Shown here: piece after piece, positions 282 through 11,628 of the stretch
Layout: every line of letters starts with the position of its first letter
Numbering within the stretch: position 1 is the stretch's first letter
Source of the DNA: Candidatus Desantisbacteria bacterium CG1_02_38_46
GTDB lineage: Bacteria; Desantisbacteria; UBA1551; UBA1559
Length of the DNA stretch: 15,591 bases
Direction: 5' to 3'
Assembly: GCA_001871015.1 (NCBI GenBank)
Contig: MNUO01000069.1
Location: 1 to 15,591 of the forward strand
Position numbers and translations under genes: made by a program
Notes under the pieces: model-generated
The model's database searches: none
Seen by the model: the letters and a program-made list of their open reading frames with translations, nothing else
What the model was told of the DNA's origin: nothing

Positions 282-650
282 TCATATTCTTTTATAGAAA
301 GCTTCTCTCCCCTTAGTAATCAACTTATATTTCCAACCATTCCTGCAACAAAAATCTATTGCTGTCTCTCTTTTCAGTTTTGTCGATAACCATAAGAGTA
401 AGGGCAAACCTTTTGTTTCATGAATTTCTTTAGCACCATCTCGATATTCAACCAAAAAATCAGGAATGTAATATCTTGCAAATCCTAAAAATTTATAAGG
501 TATCCTAATGTTATGCTTTTTTGTCCATTTTGCCACAGCATGGTCACGCTCTAACTCAACCATATATTCTCGTTCAAGGGTAGAGTCATATTTCTCTTCG
601 CCATAAGGACTCTTTTTAAGATTTGTTAACTTCCCTCTTATGGTAATCAT
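282..650 (-). CDS. Small PD-(D/E)xK nuclease, stand-alone partner of the Res-like helicase
   Basis: A 122-residue protein that looks like a lone PD-(D/E)xK nuclease domain. An acidic helix STLEREYMVEL (23-33, candidate E25/E27) is followed by IPDF with D64 and then HETKG with E78 and K80, the order expected for an E...D...ExK active site. In classical type III enzymes a nuclease of this fold forms the C-terminus of Res. Here it is a separate gene whose ATG overlaps the helicase stop as ATGA, which predicts translational coupling and a near 1:1 ratio. The gene ends in two consecutive stops (TGATGA), directly before the cysS ribosome binding site. TnsA-like nucleases have a similar N-terminal helix and are an alternative family label. 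The fold call rests on motifs only and no cleavage specificity can be read. Confidence 0.72.
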   Translation of the reverse strand: MITIRGKLTNLKKSPYGEEKYDSTLEREYMVELERDHAVAKWTKKHNIRIPYKFLGFARYYIPDFLVEYRDGAKEIHETKGLPLLLWLSTKLKRETAIDFCCRNGWKYKLITKGREAFYKRI

Positions 651-2704
651 ATTTTACTTTTTGCAAAAATACCCTCTATCAACTCTGGTCTCAAAAACAC
701 ATCTCTAATCTGGTCAACTATTGCCCAAAGGATGCGTAATAATCGCTCATCATTTGATTCCTCAACATCGGTCCCTAATAGAAAACGTTTTCTAATATGC
801 TCACGAATAATTTTAACCAAAACAACCTGTCTCTCATCTGGATTTCTATCATATTCAAGAAATGCATCATGTGCTATTAAGTGAATCTGTCGAACTAATT
901 GTTTTTTCAATTCTTCTATACCCCAATTCTCAGTTTTCGTTATTCGGGCAATTTCCTCTATTTCTATTTTAGGAACATCTTTATCAATAATTGTAAGGTC
1001 CCCATCAAGATTCAGACTTTTAATCTGTTCAATTTCTTCAGTAATGTTCATTTTATGAAATTCATATTTATAATCATCAAGAAATCTCTGCCATTCATAA
1101 ATTGGTTCAACTATTTCTGGTGGTTCTGGAGTAGGTGGCAAGGAAGAAATATCCAGTCTTTCTTCTGCTTCTTCGATAGTAGTTTCGCCTTCATCTATTT
1201 TTTCCATCTCTTTATCTTCCGGAATTTTTTCAATATCAAAAATAATGCCTGCTGGGTCTAACGAATCTGGATATTGAGTCGCCCTTAAGTGCTCCCATAG
1301 CCAATCGTGCTTCAAAATTGGATGGTCAACCACAAATAAAGATTCCCATTCTTCAGGATTTTTACTCATTCTTCTTAAACCTCTTCCAATGACTTGTGGA
1401 CCATATACAGAAAATTTTTGTCCATCTGGCATCTGTTTAAAGCAAAATTTTCTAAAAAGTAAAATCACAGAGATATTACGAACATCCCATCCTTCACGAA
1501 GCATCAAAACTGAAACCACAGCGTCCCATTCCGTTAAGGGCTCTTTATTCAGGTTGCGAGCAGCCTCTTTTAACTCATCATCAGATTCATTAGTTACAAG
1601 TAATACTTTTTTTACTCCATAGGGTTCCCCGATTTTTAAAATTTCATCTTTTATACGTTCTGCATCTGCAATTGAAATTGCGACTACAAAAAGAAGTGGC
1701 TTAAACCGAGGACTTCCATCCTTATTCATTGGCATTCTCATATGTTGATTCTTCAGGAGTTCAAGAGCAATTGCAATTTGCTGACGCATAGGTTTTACAC
1801 TTGTTATGTAGCGCCTGGCAGGTATATTCCTTCTTTCAATTTCTTCCCAGGGCACATCTTCTGCAGAAATAGTTTTTCCTGTTTCCAAATCTTCATAGGT
1901 TAACTGAACCTTTCGAACATCAGGATGAAATACCACAATTCTCTTAATAATTTTATCCTGCATTCCCTGGGCAATGTCATATACAAAAATCATTTTGCTG
2001 TCTGGATGTAATCCATCAAGTCTATCAGGAGTAGCGGTTGTATCTAACCTGAAGAACCTCTTTGGTTTGAGTTTGTTTATCAGGTCATTATATTGTTCAG
2101 CTTTAGTATTATGTGCCTCATCATTAAATATACATAAAGATTCAACATTGTCGCGTAATACTTTCCAGTTATCTGTTCGTTCATAAATCTGGTGAATATT
2201 TCCTAAAATAATATTTCCGGATCTTATGCCTACAGCACTTACAAAAGGTTTCATTATATGAAGAGAAAACCTATTTTTTAGTGTTTCATAGGAATTTGAA
2301 AAGAAGGGAAAAACATCATACACATAGGAAGAAGAATTAATATCAAAGTCGTCTATCAATCTCTCACGCACAATTGTATTTGGTGTTAAGACAAGAAATT
2401 TCATCTGGTCGTGGACAATCATCATATATGCACTCATACCAGCAATAATAGTAGTTTTTCCTCCTCCAGTCACGATATTTGTTAGTATATCCTTTTCGCC
2501 AAGAATTTCAAAGGAATAAACACAGCGCTGAATTGCTTCTAACTGCATTTTCCATTGCTTTTCGCTAAAAAGTTCCATTTTGGGCTTGAATAGTGAAGAA
2601 GAAATGTGTCTCGAAAATGCAATTCCTTTTTCAGGAATTCCCTGAAATTCTGTCTTTACCCATTCCCTAAAATTTGCTTCGTGCGATTTAAAAAAGTAAT
2701 ACAT
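647..2704 (-). CDS. SF2 DEAH helicase/translocase, type III Res-like, without its own nuclease domain
   Basis: A 685-residue superfamily 2 ATPase. The motifs are in order: Walker A TGGGKTT (79-85), DEAH (195-198), motif III TAT in RLDTTATPDR (223-225), motif V in VLMLREGWDVRN (about 399-410) and motif VI QVIGRGLRR (437-445). The LREGWDVRN block is typical of type III restriction Res subunits. After about residue 480 there is a charged region (480-560) rich in E and P, then a helical tail, with no ExK-type nuclease motif; that domain is supplied by the overlapping downstream gene. Four nucleotides separate this gene from the HEPN gene upstream. The likely role is ATP-driven movement on DNA in restriction of unmodified DNA. 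Other DEAD/DEAH defence helicases cannot be excluded, but the neighbouring methyltransferase supports a Res role. Confidence 0.88.
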   Translation of the reverse strand: MYYFFKSHEANFREWVKTEFQGIPEKGIAFSRHISSSLFKPKMELFSEKQWKMQLEAIQRCVYSFEILGEKDILTNIVTGGGKTTIIAGMSAYMMIVHDQMKFLVLTPNTIVRERLIDDFDINSSSYVYDVFPFFSNSYETLKNRFSLHIMKPFVSAVGIRSGNIILGNIHQIYERTDNWKVLRDNVESLCIFNDEAHNTKAEQYNDLINKLKPKRFFRLDTTATPDRLDGLHPDSKMIFVYDIAQGMQDKIIKRIVVFHPDVRKVQLTYEDLETGKTISAEDVPWEEIERRNIPARRYITSVKPMRQQIAIALELLKNQHMRMPMNKDGSPRFKPLLFVVAISIADAERIKDEILKIGEPYGVKKVLLVTNESDDELKEAARNLNKEPLTEWDAVVSVLMLREGWDVRNISVILLFRKFCFKQMPDGQKFSVYGPQVIGRGLRRMSKNPEEWESLFVVDHPILKHDWLWEHLRATQYPDSLDPAGIIFDIEKIPEDKEMEKIDEGETTIEEAEERLDISSLPPTPEPPEIVEPIYEWQRFLDDYKYEFHKMNITEEIEQIKSLNLDGDLTIIDKDVPKIEIEEIARITKTENWGIEELKKQLVRQIHLIAHDAFLEYDRNPDERQVVLVKIIREHIRKRFLLGTDVEESNDERLLRILWAIVDQIRDVFLRPELIEGIFAKSKI

Positions 2705-2708
2705 AACT

Positions 2709-3473
2709 TTATCCTGGTTCTATCCTTTCATCTAAACGTTTCAAAAGTAAACTTGCTAATGATAAATATTCAAGTGTTTTATAAGGATCTTCCTGTTCTA
2801 TATTCTCATGGGCTTTTGGATTTCTAATACCCAATGTAACACCTTTGAAAATTTCCATAAAACCTAATTGTTCATCTTTTTCTGATTGTGCTTGTAGATT
2901 GTTCAACTTTATTTTTGGATTATTTAAAGAAAATGCTTGTTCCATAAGTGTCGCCCCATCTAATTCTCTTAAACCAGAGATTTCTCTCACATTTACAATA
3001 ACTTCTTTAAAGGCATTTAAAATTGCTTCTGCATACATTTTATTTTCAAATGCTTTTTTGCTGACTCTTACAATATTGGGATGAATTTTGAGCGAATCAA
3101 AAAGTATAATCAAATCTTCAAGAAGTACCTGCTCCTCTTCTGTGGTTTCTACTCTCCCAATAATTTTATTGAGTTCTTTTATAACTAAATCCAAAGCAGG
3201 CCCTTTTTGGGAAGGTTCAATTCCTCCTAAAAAATCAATCCAAGGATCTTGACTTATCCCGATAGAAGGCTGATAAATCATAAGACCACTGAATTTTCTT
3301 ATGTATGGTTCTATTGCTCCAAATTTTCTGCTTAAGATTTGTTCCTGTTTTCGTATCTCACCATGGTTCTTGATTACTTCGCCATCATCTACAGATTCAC
3401 AATAGTAATTTCTATGTTTTTTCAATAAGCTCAAAAAAGATTTTAATTTTTTTATCAAGTCCTTTGTCTTCAT
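2709..3473 (-). CDS. HEPN-superfamily Ymh/TIGR02391-like protein, putative ribonuclease
   Basis: A 254-residue, largely helical protein. Residues 1-140 are a coiled, charged N-terminal half I cannot assign. Residues about 142-250 match the pattern of the Hypoth_Ymh (TIGR02391) family: AILNAFKEVIVNVRE, SGLRELDGATLMEQAF, a glycine in LGFMEIFKGVTLGIRNPKAH, and LEYLSLASLLLKRLDE. RNPKAH at 217-222 is an R-x4-H motif, the catalytic signature of HEPN RNases (codons at 2808-2825). Family assignment is from memory of the pattern. RNase activity is inferred. Nine nucleotides separate it from the methyltransferase stop, and four separate its own stop from the helicase start, so it is an integral member of the operon. 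Possible roles are an abortive RNase effector, a regulator of restriction, or a purely structural subunit. Confidence 0.75.
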   Translation of the reverse strand: MKTKDLIKKLKSFLSLLKKHRNYYCESVDDGEVIKNHGEIRKQEQILSRKFGAIEPYIRKFSGLMIYQPSIGISQDPWIDFLGGIEPSQKGPALDLVIKELNKIIGRVETTEEEQVLLEDLIILFDSLKIHPNIVRVSKKAFENKMYAEAILNAFKEVIVNVREISGLRELDGATLMEQAFSLNNPKIKLNNLQAQSEKDEQLGFMEIFKGVTLGIRNPKAHENIEQEDPYKTLEYLSLASLLLKRLDERIEPG

Positions 3474-3482
3474 TGTATTCTT

Positions 3483-5417
3483 CTATTCTCCTATTTTAAT
3501 TTTCCTTGCTAATACAGTCTCGCCGGCAAGGTTGTCCTGAACTTTGCAGGCAATCGTATATTCTCCTGACTTCTCAAATTTGTGTTTAGCGGTCAAGATT
3601 GCTTCAAATCGCTCGCCAATTTTCTTATCTTTAACCTTTTCTCGCGATAAAATATATTCTTTGTCTGCAACAAAATGACCTTCCTGATAATCAAGGTCCC
3701 ACTGGCAATTGACTAAAAAACTATCTTCGTTGGTTGAAAGGGCATCAATTGCTTCAAATTCATATTCAAGTTCACTAATCTTTTTTGCCTTAATATCACC
3801 GATAACCGGTGGCTTGGAAAAACGCAAGAAAAATTCATTTTCTTCGGCATCTGGATAGCGCTGTAAAATACGAGCACGGAATTCTCTTGAATCAAGTGGA
3901 ATTAACTCTATTTCAACAGGCAAATTATTTTCCTCAGCATATTTTCTAAGTACTTTAATATATTCAATGCCCTGCCGACTGAACCTCCACCCAATAATTT
4001 TTGCACGCACAAGTTTATTTGGCTCAAGTCGGGATTTTATTTCATCAAAGAAGTCCTTAACAACTTTTGCATCAATAGAATCGTTTGGATTTGCAGGTCC
4101 CACCAAAATTGGTTCCTGCTGTCCGGGCGGACGAAAACCATTAGCAATGCCTTCCGCAGTATTAGCACTTGCACCATAGCAGGTTAAAACAAAATCTATA
4201 AAATCATCTTGGGAAAGATATGTAAATTTGTCAATTGGATAAACGCCAAGATAAGAAACTTCAATGTTAGGAATTTTTTCTGCTGTAATATCCAATTTTC
4301 CCTGAACCATTTCCGCTTTGGATATGTTACTTTTTACTCCACTCATTTCTTCACCAGTTTTAACAAGCCGGTCAAGAGTTACTGAAATTGCAACGCGCGA
4401 GGAATCGCAACCAATAAATCTGCGCTTTAGTTTCATTGCCACAGCTAAAGTAGTTCCTCCCCCACAGAAGAAATCAGCAACAATATCACCCTCATTAGAA
4501 GACGCTTTAATAATCCGCTCTAAAAGTGCTTCAGGTTTTTGGGTAGGATAACCGATCATCTCGCTTCTTACTCTATCCGTGGTATAAATATCACACCACC
4601 AATCTTCCATAGCTTTTCCTTTTTCCTCAAGTTTTTTAACATCTATTTCTTTACCCGTATAAGCAAGAGCCGTGCCACGGGTATCATGAACTCCTGATTT
4701 ATGAGGGCTACGAGGCTGATTAAAAGTAAACTGTTCTGTCTTAGAATATCTTAGAATAATATCATGCTTTTTTGGAAAGTGTTGGTGTGTTCCACTTGGT
4801 CCTGAATAACACCAAACTATCTCGTTCTGAAAATTCTCATATCCAAAAATTTTGTCCATCTCGCATTTGATATAATGACTTGCATGCCAGTCGCAGTGGA
4901 CATAAATTGAACCGGTATTTTTCAAAACACGTCTCATTTCCCATAGCCGGGCATTCAACCAGATAAGATATGTATCAATTCCTCCTTCCCATATATCATA
5001 GAAAGTGCGGACTTCATTTGTATCGCCCCAGATAACATTATAGGTTCTACCTGAGAAAAATGGTGGGTCAATATAAATAAGATCAACAAATTCTGATGGA
5101 ATTGTGCGAAGAACTTCAAGATTATCTCCCAGAATCAGTTGGTTTGCTGGTAATTCAGGAGCATTAAAAATTACAGTATCTCCGTGATTAGGTGGATGAA
5201 GTCTCGGGAGCCGGATATATGGAAAAACTCTGTCAAATGACTTGTGTTCATCATATCCCAAGGGTGGGCGAGTCGGGTCTGGTAAATTATGGACCCGCCT
5301 GCGCATTTTCTCAGAAACAGAAAATACCCTTTTCTGTTCCGGTAATGCCTGTTTTTGCGACTCTTCTTGAATTTTCTGTAAATCTTCCTGCGCCTGAACC
5401 TTCTTTTCTTTCTGCAT
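3483..5417 (-). CDS. Beta-class DNA methyltransferase (type III Mod-like) with a long C-terminal extension
   Basis: A 644-residue AdoMet-dependent DNA methyltransferase, probably N6-adenine. Catalytic motif IV DPPF lies at 117-120 within VDLIYIDPPFFSG. The AdoMet-binding motif I, DFFCGGGTT, follows at about 315-323, and GYPTQKPEALLERI (289-302) is the usual motif X region. The order IV, target region, I is that of beta-class enzymes such as type III Mod. The first 50 residues are a charged QKE-rich coil. From about 360 to 644 there is a long extension. Its end (about 555-640) alternates short strands and contains CQWDLDY and KFEKSGEYTIACKVQDN, resembling a PKD/Ig-like beta sandwich. The start ATG has an AAGGGA site 5 nt upstream. 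It is the first gene of the operon, as expected for the protecting activity of a restriction system. Confidence 0.9.
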   Translation of the reverse strand: MQKEKKVQAQEDLQKIQEESQKQALPEQKRVFSVSEKMRRRVHNLPDPTRPPLGYDEHKSFDRVFPYIRLPRLHPPNHGDTVIFNAPELPANQLILGDNLEVLRTIPSEFVDLIYIDPPFFSGRTYNVIWGDTNEVRTFYDIWEGGIDTYLIWLNARLWEMRRVLKNTGSIYVHCDWHASHYIKCEMDKIFGYENFQNEIVWCYSGPSGTHQHFPKKHDIILRYSKTEQFTFNQPRSPHKSGVHDTRGTALAYTGKEIDVKKLEEKGKAMEDWWCDIYTTDRVRSEMIGYPTQKPEALLERIIKASSNEGDIVADFFCGGGTTLAVAMKLKRRFIGCDSSRVAISVTLDRLVKTGEEMSGVKSNISKAEMVQGKLDITAEKIPNIEVSYLGVYPIDKFTYLSQDDFIDFVLTCYGASANTAEGIANGFRPPGQQEPILVGPANPNDSIDAKVVKDFFDEIKSRLEPNKLVRAKIIGWRFSRQGIEYIKVLRKYAEENNLPVEIELIPLDSREFRARILQRYPDAEENEFFLRFSKPPVIGDIKAKKISELEYEFEAIDALSTNEDSFLVNCQWDLDYQEGHFVADKEYILSREKVKDKKIGERFEAILTAKHKFEKSGEYTIACKVQDNLAGETVLARKIKIGE

Positions 5418-5546: not shown

Positions 5547-5575
5547 TTGACAAAAATAAAAAAATATGATATAAT
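5547..5575 (+). promoter_or_regulatory. Near-perfect extended -10 sigma70 promoter on the + strand
   Basis: TTGACA (5547-5552), a 17-bp spacer, then TATAAT (5570-5575) with TG at 5567-5568 forming an extended -10. This is the consensus in every key position. It points away from the methyltransferase operon and has no protein-coding gene downstream before a terminator, so it most likely drives the small RNA that follows. Confidence 0.85.
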
Positions 5576-5581
5576 CTTTAC

Positions 5582-5676
5582 AGAAGTTGAAAGTTAATTT
5601 TCAAAAGGTTCCTCCTCAGTGATAAAAACCCGGGATAGGGTTTTTCCGAAAGGATAGCTGGGGAGGTCGTTTTTTT
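5582..5676 (+). ncRNA. Unrecognised small RNA of about 95 nt with a branched fold
   Basis: Transcription is predicted to start near A5582. The RNA begins with a small hairpin (UUGAAA 5587-5592 with UUUCAA 5599-5604). A three-way junction follows. The closing stem CCUCCUCAG (5611-5619) pairs fully with CUGGGGAGG (5658-5666). One arm is AAAAACCC (5624-5631) with GGGUUUUU (5638-5645). A second short arm is CC-GAAA-GG (5646-5653). Seven U residues follow (5670-5676). There is no start codon with an open frame and I do not recognise a known family: SRP RNA, 6S, hammerhead and the common riboswitch cores do not fit. It lies between the methyltransferase operon and the DUF3800 gene and is divergent from the former, so a role in the island is possible but unproven. 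Confidence 0.68.
5611..5676 (+). terminator. Intrinsic terminator formed by the closing stem of the small RNA
   Basis: The 9-bp stem 5611-5619/5658-5666 is followed by UCG and seven U residues. The U run overlaps the DUF3800 stop codon, which is read from the other strand, so the two transcription units meet tail to tail. Confidence 0.7.
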
Positions 5677-6397
5677 AGTGGATTTTATATTTATTGTCAT
5701 CGTTTCTTTTGCTATAATAAGAGTTTCGTTCATAGAAGATATCTCTTCCTGGTTTGTAATAATTAAACTCGCTTTTTATTCTTTGTTCTATCGCTTTATA
5801 TGGCCTCACTTCAATATCACCCCAGTCACCATATTTTCTATAAATTGCCCATCCACAATAATCAGCTGCTTGAAGACAATAATTAGACTCTGATGGATGG
5901 TGAAAAATGTAAAACCTTTTATTTTCATTCCCGCCTAACAACCTCCTCAATGCTACCTTAATACCCTTCTCAACAAAATCCCTCTTTTTTGTAAAAGGAA
6001 TTGAATCTGTAAAAATGAAAACTTTGTTAAAGGAATATCTTTTGAATATATACTGAAGAAGGCATTTGTATATTTCAAGATAAATTACAAAATAATTTCT
6101 TGTGGGATGATTTTTTGGTTTTTCTATAATTATTGAATCTATTTCATATGAATCATCGCTCTTTAAAATGTCAAAAACTTTATTTCTTATAATCTGGCTA
6201 TCTTCGCTTGCGTGAAAGAGTTTTATATTTTGACCTTCTTTTAGCAGTTTATTATCAAGTTCATTCAGCTTTTCCATTAAGCCAAAAGGGGTTGTGCTTA
6301 ATAATGAAGTAAAAACCAGGTGCTGGCTACCCTGTGAGGAAAAATCAAAATTTCCTGATTCGTCAAAAAATAAATAAAGCTTTTCTACATTTTTCAT
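5675..6397 (-). CDS. DUF3800 family protein, RNase H-like fold expected
   Basis: A 240-residue soluble protein. It has the family hallmarks: an N-terminal strand ending in DESGNF (12-17), FHASED (61-66), an aspartate after a hydrophobic strand in VFIFTDS (D131), and the C-terminal CLQAADYCGWAIYRK (174-188). Aspartates spread in this way suggest a metal-dependent RNase H-type nuclease site, but the biochemical role of the family is not established. DUF3800 genes are often seen near defence and mobile genes. Its start has no clear ribosome binding site. It follows the HDAC gene by 65 nt and precedes the small RNA and methyltransferase operon, so it may be part of the island or an independent passenger. 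The C-terminal tail is rich in K, R, Y and N. Confidence 0.82.
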   Translation of the reverse strand: MKNVEKLYLFFDESGNFDFSSQGSQHLVFTSLLSTTPFGLMEKLNELDNKLLKEGQNIKLFHASEDSQIIRNKVFDILKSDDSYEIDSIIIEKPKNHPTRNYFVIYLEIYKCLLQYIFKRYSFNKVFIFTDSIPFTKKRDFVEKGIKVALRRLLGGNENKRFYIFHHPSESNYCLQAADYCGWAIYRKYGDWGDIEVRPYKAIEQRIKSEFNYYKPGRDIFYERNSYYSKRNDDNKYKIH

Positions 6398-11600: not shown

Positions 11601-11628
11601 ATTATACATTATTTTTTTCAATTGTCAA
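11601..11628 (-). promoter_or_regulatory. Consensus sigma70 promoter for speD-speE-rplM-rpsI
   Basis: TTGACA (11628-11623), a 16-bp spacer, then TATAAT (11606-11601) on the minus strand. Start of transcription near 11594 gives a leader of about 135 nt before the speD TTG. A/T runs upstream could act as an UP element. Confidence 0.82.

Follow-up and report, generated by a model that had tools for sequence, protein, structure and literature searches.

DUF3800 RNAs owe their name to comparative genomics, and a literature search found no tested function for them. In the type III systems on record, the antitoxin RNA precedes the toxin gene within one operon, usually as repeats. One such antitoxin, the abiF RNA (RF03085), neutralises its protein (PMC12373285). 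Phage PhiTE can carry a copy of an antitoxin RNA as a ToxI mimic (PMC3475682), and RNA anti-CRISPRs (Racr) have been described in phages (PMC10651486). A CRISPR-associated DUF3800 protein reportedly combines the RNase H fold and a catalytic rearrangement, and an earlier link of DUF3800 to putative non-coding RNAs is mentioned in the same paper (PMC10910872). The window, by which we mean the whole 15,591-nt stretch analysed, holds a module that resembles the type III toxin-antitoxin systems ToxIN and AbiF in joining a small structured RNA to one nuclease-like protein, both in defence loci and in prophages. It differs from them in that the RNA is a single unit on the opposite strand, convergent past the stop codon of the DUF3800 gene instead of upstream in its operon, and in that the protein, a candidate toxin, has a predicted RNase HII-like fold.

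Sequence comparison showed that the segment 5547-5676 encodes a conserved and structured small RNA, about 90 nt long. A sigma-70-type promoter, TTGACA-17-TATAAT with a TG extended -10, was found at 5547..5575 (+) and matched at 12 of 12 positions; 0.003 perfect promoters with a spacing of 17 are expected per window of the same dinucleotide make-up. RNAfold gave -30.5 kcal/mol for 5582-5678, compared with a mean of -21.0 for shuffled sequences (z -3.3), and none of 200 shuffles folded as low. A second perfect promoter (TTGACA-16-TATAAT, lacking the extended -10) was observed at 11601-11628 (-).

The RNA core (5603..5674, +), which ends in a U tract, scored 76.8 bits with covariance model R1, the window copy being part of the R1 training set. 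Its 5' flank and the start of P1 read AAAGGUUCC (5604..5612, +), with the family consensus AAA(G/C)GU.CC. RNAfold and covariation agreed on the closing stem P1 (5611..5620 with 5657-5666, +), and the fold and covariation likewise defined two inner arms. P2 occupies 5625..5644 (+), pairing 5625-5631 with 5638-5644, and its 5' strand is AAGAGCC in most relatives. P3 (5645..5654, +) is UCC-GAAA-GGA, pairing 5645-5647 with 5652-5654 under a GAAA loop, and differs in length between relatives. UAG, the 3' strand of P1 and GGUC follow at 5655..5668 (+), and a U7 tail comes after GGUC. The consensus flank, UAG and GGUC were invariant in 38 of 38 copies. The promoter, the three-way junction with two arms (one GAAA-capped) and the terminator-like U7 end had all been described in an earlier note made from the sequence alone, and each was found in its place; the closing stem reported there as 9 bp was also present and has 10 bp when its last pair, a conserved U.G, is included.

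The same note had called the RNA isolated, which did not hold. A DUF3800 gene (5675..6397, -; PF12686, 46.8 bits) converges on it, with the stop codon 6 nt past GGUC, and this tail-to-tail layout recurred in 18 of 18 strong linked loci. The gene encodes a 240-aa protein for which an AlphaFold2 model built from 21 sequences reached a pLDDT of 87.5. The best solved structure for the model was RNase HII (1eke; Foldseek E 1e-4), and VIA-align superposed the two over 161 residues at 3.0 A (Z 12.3); RNase H2/H3 and Argonaute PIWI domains were the next matches. The residues D12, E13, G15, F19, H62, R71, K93, Q176, D179, Y180 and W183 were invariant, so that the predicted RNase H fold comes with conserved acidic residues (D12, E13, D179), as in RNase HII-like proteins. 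Judged from this model, the DUF3800 protein is probably a nuclease.

DUF3800 homologues of about 24-50% identity were collected from GTDB genomes, plasmids, phages and IMG/VR; the viral search found nothing with the window protein as single query and succeeded with an alignment as query. The same RNA was found on the opposite strand, just past the DUF3800 stop, in the first homologue set. R1, whose E-values are based on a short calibration, was built from 11 copies including that of the window, and it found seven linked copies outside the training set (L017, L024, L037, L038, L039, L040 and L044) at 66-75 bits. In all, R1 placed the RNA tail-to-tail with DUF3800 at 18 non-redundant loci of Patescibacteria, Alphaproteobacteria, phages and others (64-83 bits, the range over all members being 51 to 83). 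Weaker matches (17-28 bits) stood in the same place and orientation at eight distant viral DUF3800 genes, and the only homologues with no R1 match were L052, which is very distant, and L047, which is cut at a contig end. The distribution of R1 matches was patchy: 10 of 386 sampled genomes matched, one of them a false positive; in genus g113 the RNA was present in one of 12 genomes; and one further copy came from surveying four phyla. The candidate L036 (26 bits) was rejected, as its match lies inside murF.

The closing stem showed strong covariation. Over 21 copies, 99.5% of the P1 cells were paired, and both partners had changed in seven of the ten pairs; when the partners were shifted by one column, overall pairing fell from 91% to 56-57%. 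MAFFT alignment A2, made independently of the model, gave the same result for P1; A5 and A8 are model-fitted alignments. In P1, G.U occurred in 26 cells and A.C in none, a wobble asymmetry that assigns the RNA to the strand opposite to DUF3800 and rules out an RNA on the gene strand. Together with the fold, the covariation over 21 sequences bears out the earlier proposal of a real small RNA gene.

A cmscan of the window gave no Rfam match at the gathering cut-off, and a housekeeping RNA was rejected on this ground. Run on the segment alone, it returned RF02968 (DUF3800-IX RNA) at 5610-5671 with 26.5 bits (E 9e-4; gathering cut-off 36.8), and other families, searched up to an E of 10, appeared at chance level only, no known ribozyme or sRNA among them. 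The RNA is thus relatable, below the cut-off, to a family that the earlier note had been unable to name. L016 scored 28.8 bits with RF02968 and the other members gave no match; in the loci scanned, the window-class RNA stayed below the cut-off of every Rfam family, and RF02968 produced only 19-21 bit matches across 98 sampled genomes. Like DUF3800-IX RNA, the window class has a three-way junction, two arms, similar junction letters and a tail-to-tail DUF3800 gene, as seen in the consensus alignment and in the PF12686 gene 6 nt away. In contrast to it, the window class has another P2 sequence, the AAAGGU flank and solitary phage copies; most members are invisible to RF02968, and R1 was blind to the true DUF3800-IX RNA that lies beside DUF3800 in L061. 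In the wide sense of a conserved structured RNA adjoining DUF3800, the 18 linked loci and the covariation make it a DUF3800 RNA, and sequence comparison places it as an undescribed class among those known. In L024 (-), a DUF3800-V RNA (67 bits) was observed 22 nt upstream of the window-class RNA, in tandem (2177-2244 and 2267-2365), both being convergent with one DUF3800 gene. Further DUF3800 genes in these genomes (L056, L060-L065) had no window-class RNA; of these, L061 has its DUF3800-IX RNA and L063 a DUF3800-V RNA.

On its other side, the RNA-DUF3800 unit of the window adjoins a restriction-modification (RM) operon, so that its location in a defence island, as first described, was confirmed. 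By profile matches, this type III-like operon (282..5417, -) lies outside the unit and comprises a methylase (3483-5417, -), a Hypoth_ymh protein (2709-3473, -), a ResIII helicase (647-2704, -) and a TnsA-like endonuclease (282-650, -). The Hypoth_ymh protein (TIGR02391) matched the PADLOC models PD-Lambda-3_B and Aga_HEPN, and it is possibly an abortive-infection part of the operon. A covariance search of relatives had been suggested with the methyltransferase operon as the expected neighbour; the fold was conserved as proposed, and the constant neighbour was DUF3800. On the sequence data, the window RNA thus belongs with the DUF3800 gene that converges on it and not with the methyltransferase operon, because it is the DUF3800 link that accounts for it. 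Elsewhere, the pair was found just upstream of hsdR, with hsdS and a NYN nuclease (L037), and just upstream of another hsdR, with a HEC-07-like gene (L038), both on contigs from the viral collection. Other neighbours were hsdS (L026), an Eco57I methylase (L024), Mrr with a PtuA-like ATPase (L040) and a PADLOC candidate family (L018), and in Gordonia phage Kenna the pair comes after an immunity repressor. The comparison thus shows the pair to be frequent in RM islands and mobile elements.

Twenty copies had no adjoining DUF3800, 16 of them in phages. The four bacterial orphans are L032, L034 and L035, which the genome survey returned as R1 matches at 61-64 bits, and L066, from a later survey. 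PF12686 was absent from two of the three genomes with L032, L034 and L035 and had three copies elsewhere in the third; L032 belongs to a type I RM locus, where it converges with hsdM and has an Abi_C protein as neighbour. A DNA pattern of the 5' half, using neither the protein nor the 3' half, retrieved 11 IMG/VR stretches, all 11 of which were members by R1 (51-75 bits) and three of which had DUF3800; a second pattern retrieved nine members, two with DUF3800. For the second set and L066, the absence of DUF3800 was judged on the fetched stretch only. For 14 orphans the 5' half was set by the pattern itself; GGUC, UAG and the 3' side of P1, which the pattern did not include, are present in them. 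Among whole viral records of orphans, DUF3800 was found in none of eight (controls, three of three), which is not proof of absence because the records may be fragments. L069/L073 and L072/L076 are near-duplicates, and the count of 20 excludes L076; a long open reading frame overlaps with the RNA in both L069 and L073. Taken alone, the orphans had 98% of P1 paired and double changes at seven of ten pairs. They covary like the linked copies, and are therefore maintained as RNAs.

BLAST with orphans located the RNA 75 nt upstream of tRNA-Asn in Mycobacterium phage Nebkiss and, in Corynebacterium phage PSonyx, within a five-member array between tRNA-Lys and tRNA-Arg. A tblastn of the window DUF3800 protein against the phage collection matched Gordonia phages only, and thus Nebkiss and PSonyx have no recognisable DUF3800 relative. 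In Gaia, a near relative, the RNA was absent at the corresponding site. In L086 and L082 the RNA comes after a tRNA, and phage DNA methyltransferases lie near L072/L076 and L069; apart from the tRNA cases, the neighbours of orphans were diverse. Own promoters showed no excess in the orphans as a group (2 against 0.7 expected). BLAST of orphan L072 against phages and of orphan L035 against plasmids returned nothing.

A nuclease-fold partner, an RM context and intact solitary phage copies fit the precedents of ToxIN with PhiTE and of the anti-CRISPR RNAs, and for these reasons we lean, with confidence somewhat below the halfway mark, towards a type III toxin-antitoxin-like module in which the RNA restrains the nuclease and phages carry antitoxin-mimic RNAs. 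DUF3800 would act as a nuclease effector of RNase HII-like fold. It would bind the RNA at the invariant parts (the AAA(G/C)GU.CC flank, the A-rich and UAG junction, and GGUC) and, while bound, would be kept inactive as in type III systems. If an infection interfered with transcription in the host or with the RM system, the amount of RNA would fall and the nuclease would be released; a phage bringing only the RNA would provide a mimic of the antitoxin and so cancel the defence. The 18 linked loci, the P1 covariation, the RNase HII fold, the RM and defence neighbours, the immunity repressor of Kenna and the orphans were counted for this antitoxin reading; counted against it were a convergent, single-copy RNA where type III antitoxins lie upstream in the same operon, the orphans in bacteria, the lack of a promoter excess among orphans, and the DUF3800 genes of these genomes that have no window-class RNA. 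An alternative that we regard as possible and on balance unlikely makes the RNA a required cofactor, DUF3800 and RNA forming an active ribonucleoprotein nuclease and the phage copies being decoys or serving another purpose. The constant pairing of gene and RNA suits it, as does the likeness of the DUF3800 fold to Argonaute PIWI domains; however, the aligned copies contain no variable, unpaired guide-like segment of the kind found in omega RNA, tracrRNA or crRNA, and a phage without the protein would have no obvious use for the RNA unless as a decoy.

The existence of 20 copies with no adjoining DUF3800, four of them near tRNA genes, would also be expected if the RNA had its own function, for example in phage RNA or tRNA regions, and DUF3800 exploited or recognised it, the protein link being secondary. 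This is improbable, given that the DUF3800 homologues of the group all keep the RNA at one fixed place, that orphans are otherwise scattered among unlike genes and that no known ribozyme or sRNA family matches. The distance of 6 nt to the stop codon, very short elsewhere too, and the U-rich tail of many copies could mark a mere cis element at the 3' end of the DUF3800 gene, antisense or a two-way terminator. Fold and sequence are unchanged in copies without DUF3800, however, the wobble pairs reveal selection on the RNA strand as RNA, and the U tract is missing in some linked copies (L014, L018), all of which makes such an element very unlikely. The earlier note had also pointed to CCUCCUC as complementary to ribosome binding sites, which would suit a free trans-acting sRNA. 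The motif does stand in the closing stem of the window RNA, but as a conserved feature it failed, occurring in four of 38 members and within a P1 whose sequence varies by compensatory change; since it is not invariant, the anti-ribosome-binding-site idea fails, and a trans-acting sRNA of this kind is barely credible.

Returning to the antitoxin reading, a fuller version of it is put forward more tentatively still: RNase HII-like DUF3800 toxins, held off by a convergent RNA, would represent a new toxin-antitoxin architecture guarding RM islands, with mimic RNAs carried widely by phages, some among tRNA genes. The phage orphans resemble Racr in being solitary copies of a host defence RNA, but Racr mimics CRISPR repeats, whereas the orphans, putative inhibitors, copy the partner RNA of DUF3800. 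That this class also occurs alone in phages is a direct functional clue, suggesting inhibitor and mimic, and the isolated phages Nebkiss, PSonyx and Kenna offer a test system. If the reading is true, an RNA-based counter-defence would join two precedents, the ToxI mimic and the anti-CRISPR RNAs, and defence islands would gain a new nuclease under RNA control.

Several smaller observations concern other DUF3800 loci. Past the DUF3800 stop, the distant viral loci L043, L045, L046, L048, L049, L050 and L051 carry a GAGCCC arm and a UAG junction with a longer, bulged closing stem, and Rfam recognised none of these variants at gathering. Segments resembling sRNAs, with a promoter and a hairpin, were seen on the opposite strand past the DUF3800 stop in L060 (G116 contig 110, past 2199) and L062 (contig 71 of the window's genome, past 2027); no Rfam family matched them, and they are perhaps further DUF3800 RNA classes. 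Two Patescibacteria have, immediately upstream of DUF3800, an open reading frame of about 118 aa that lacks a confident Pfam match and abuts the DUF3800 start or comes close to doing so (L014, 937-1293; L015, 5642-6001).
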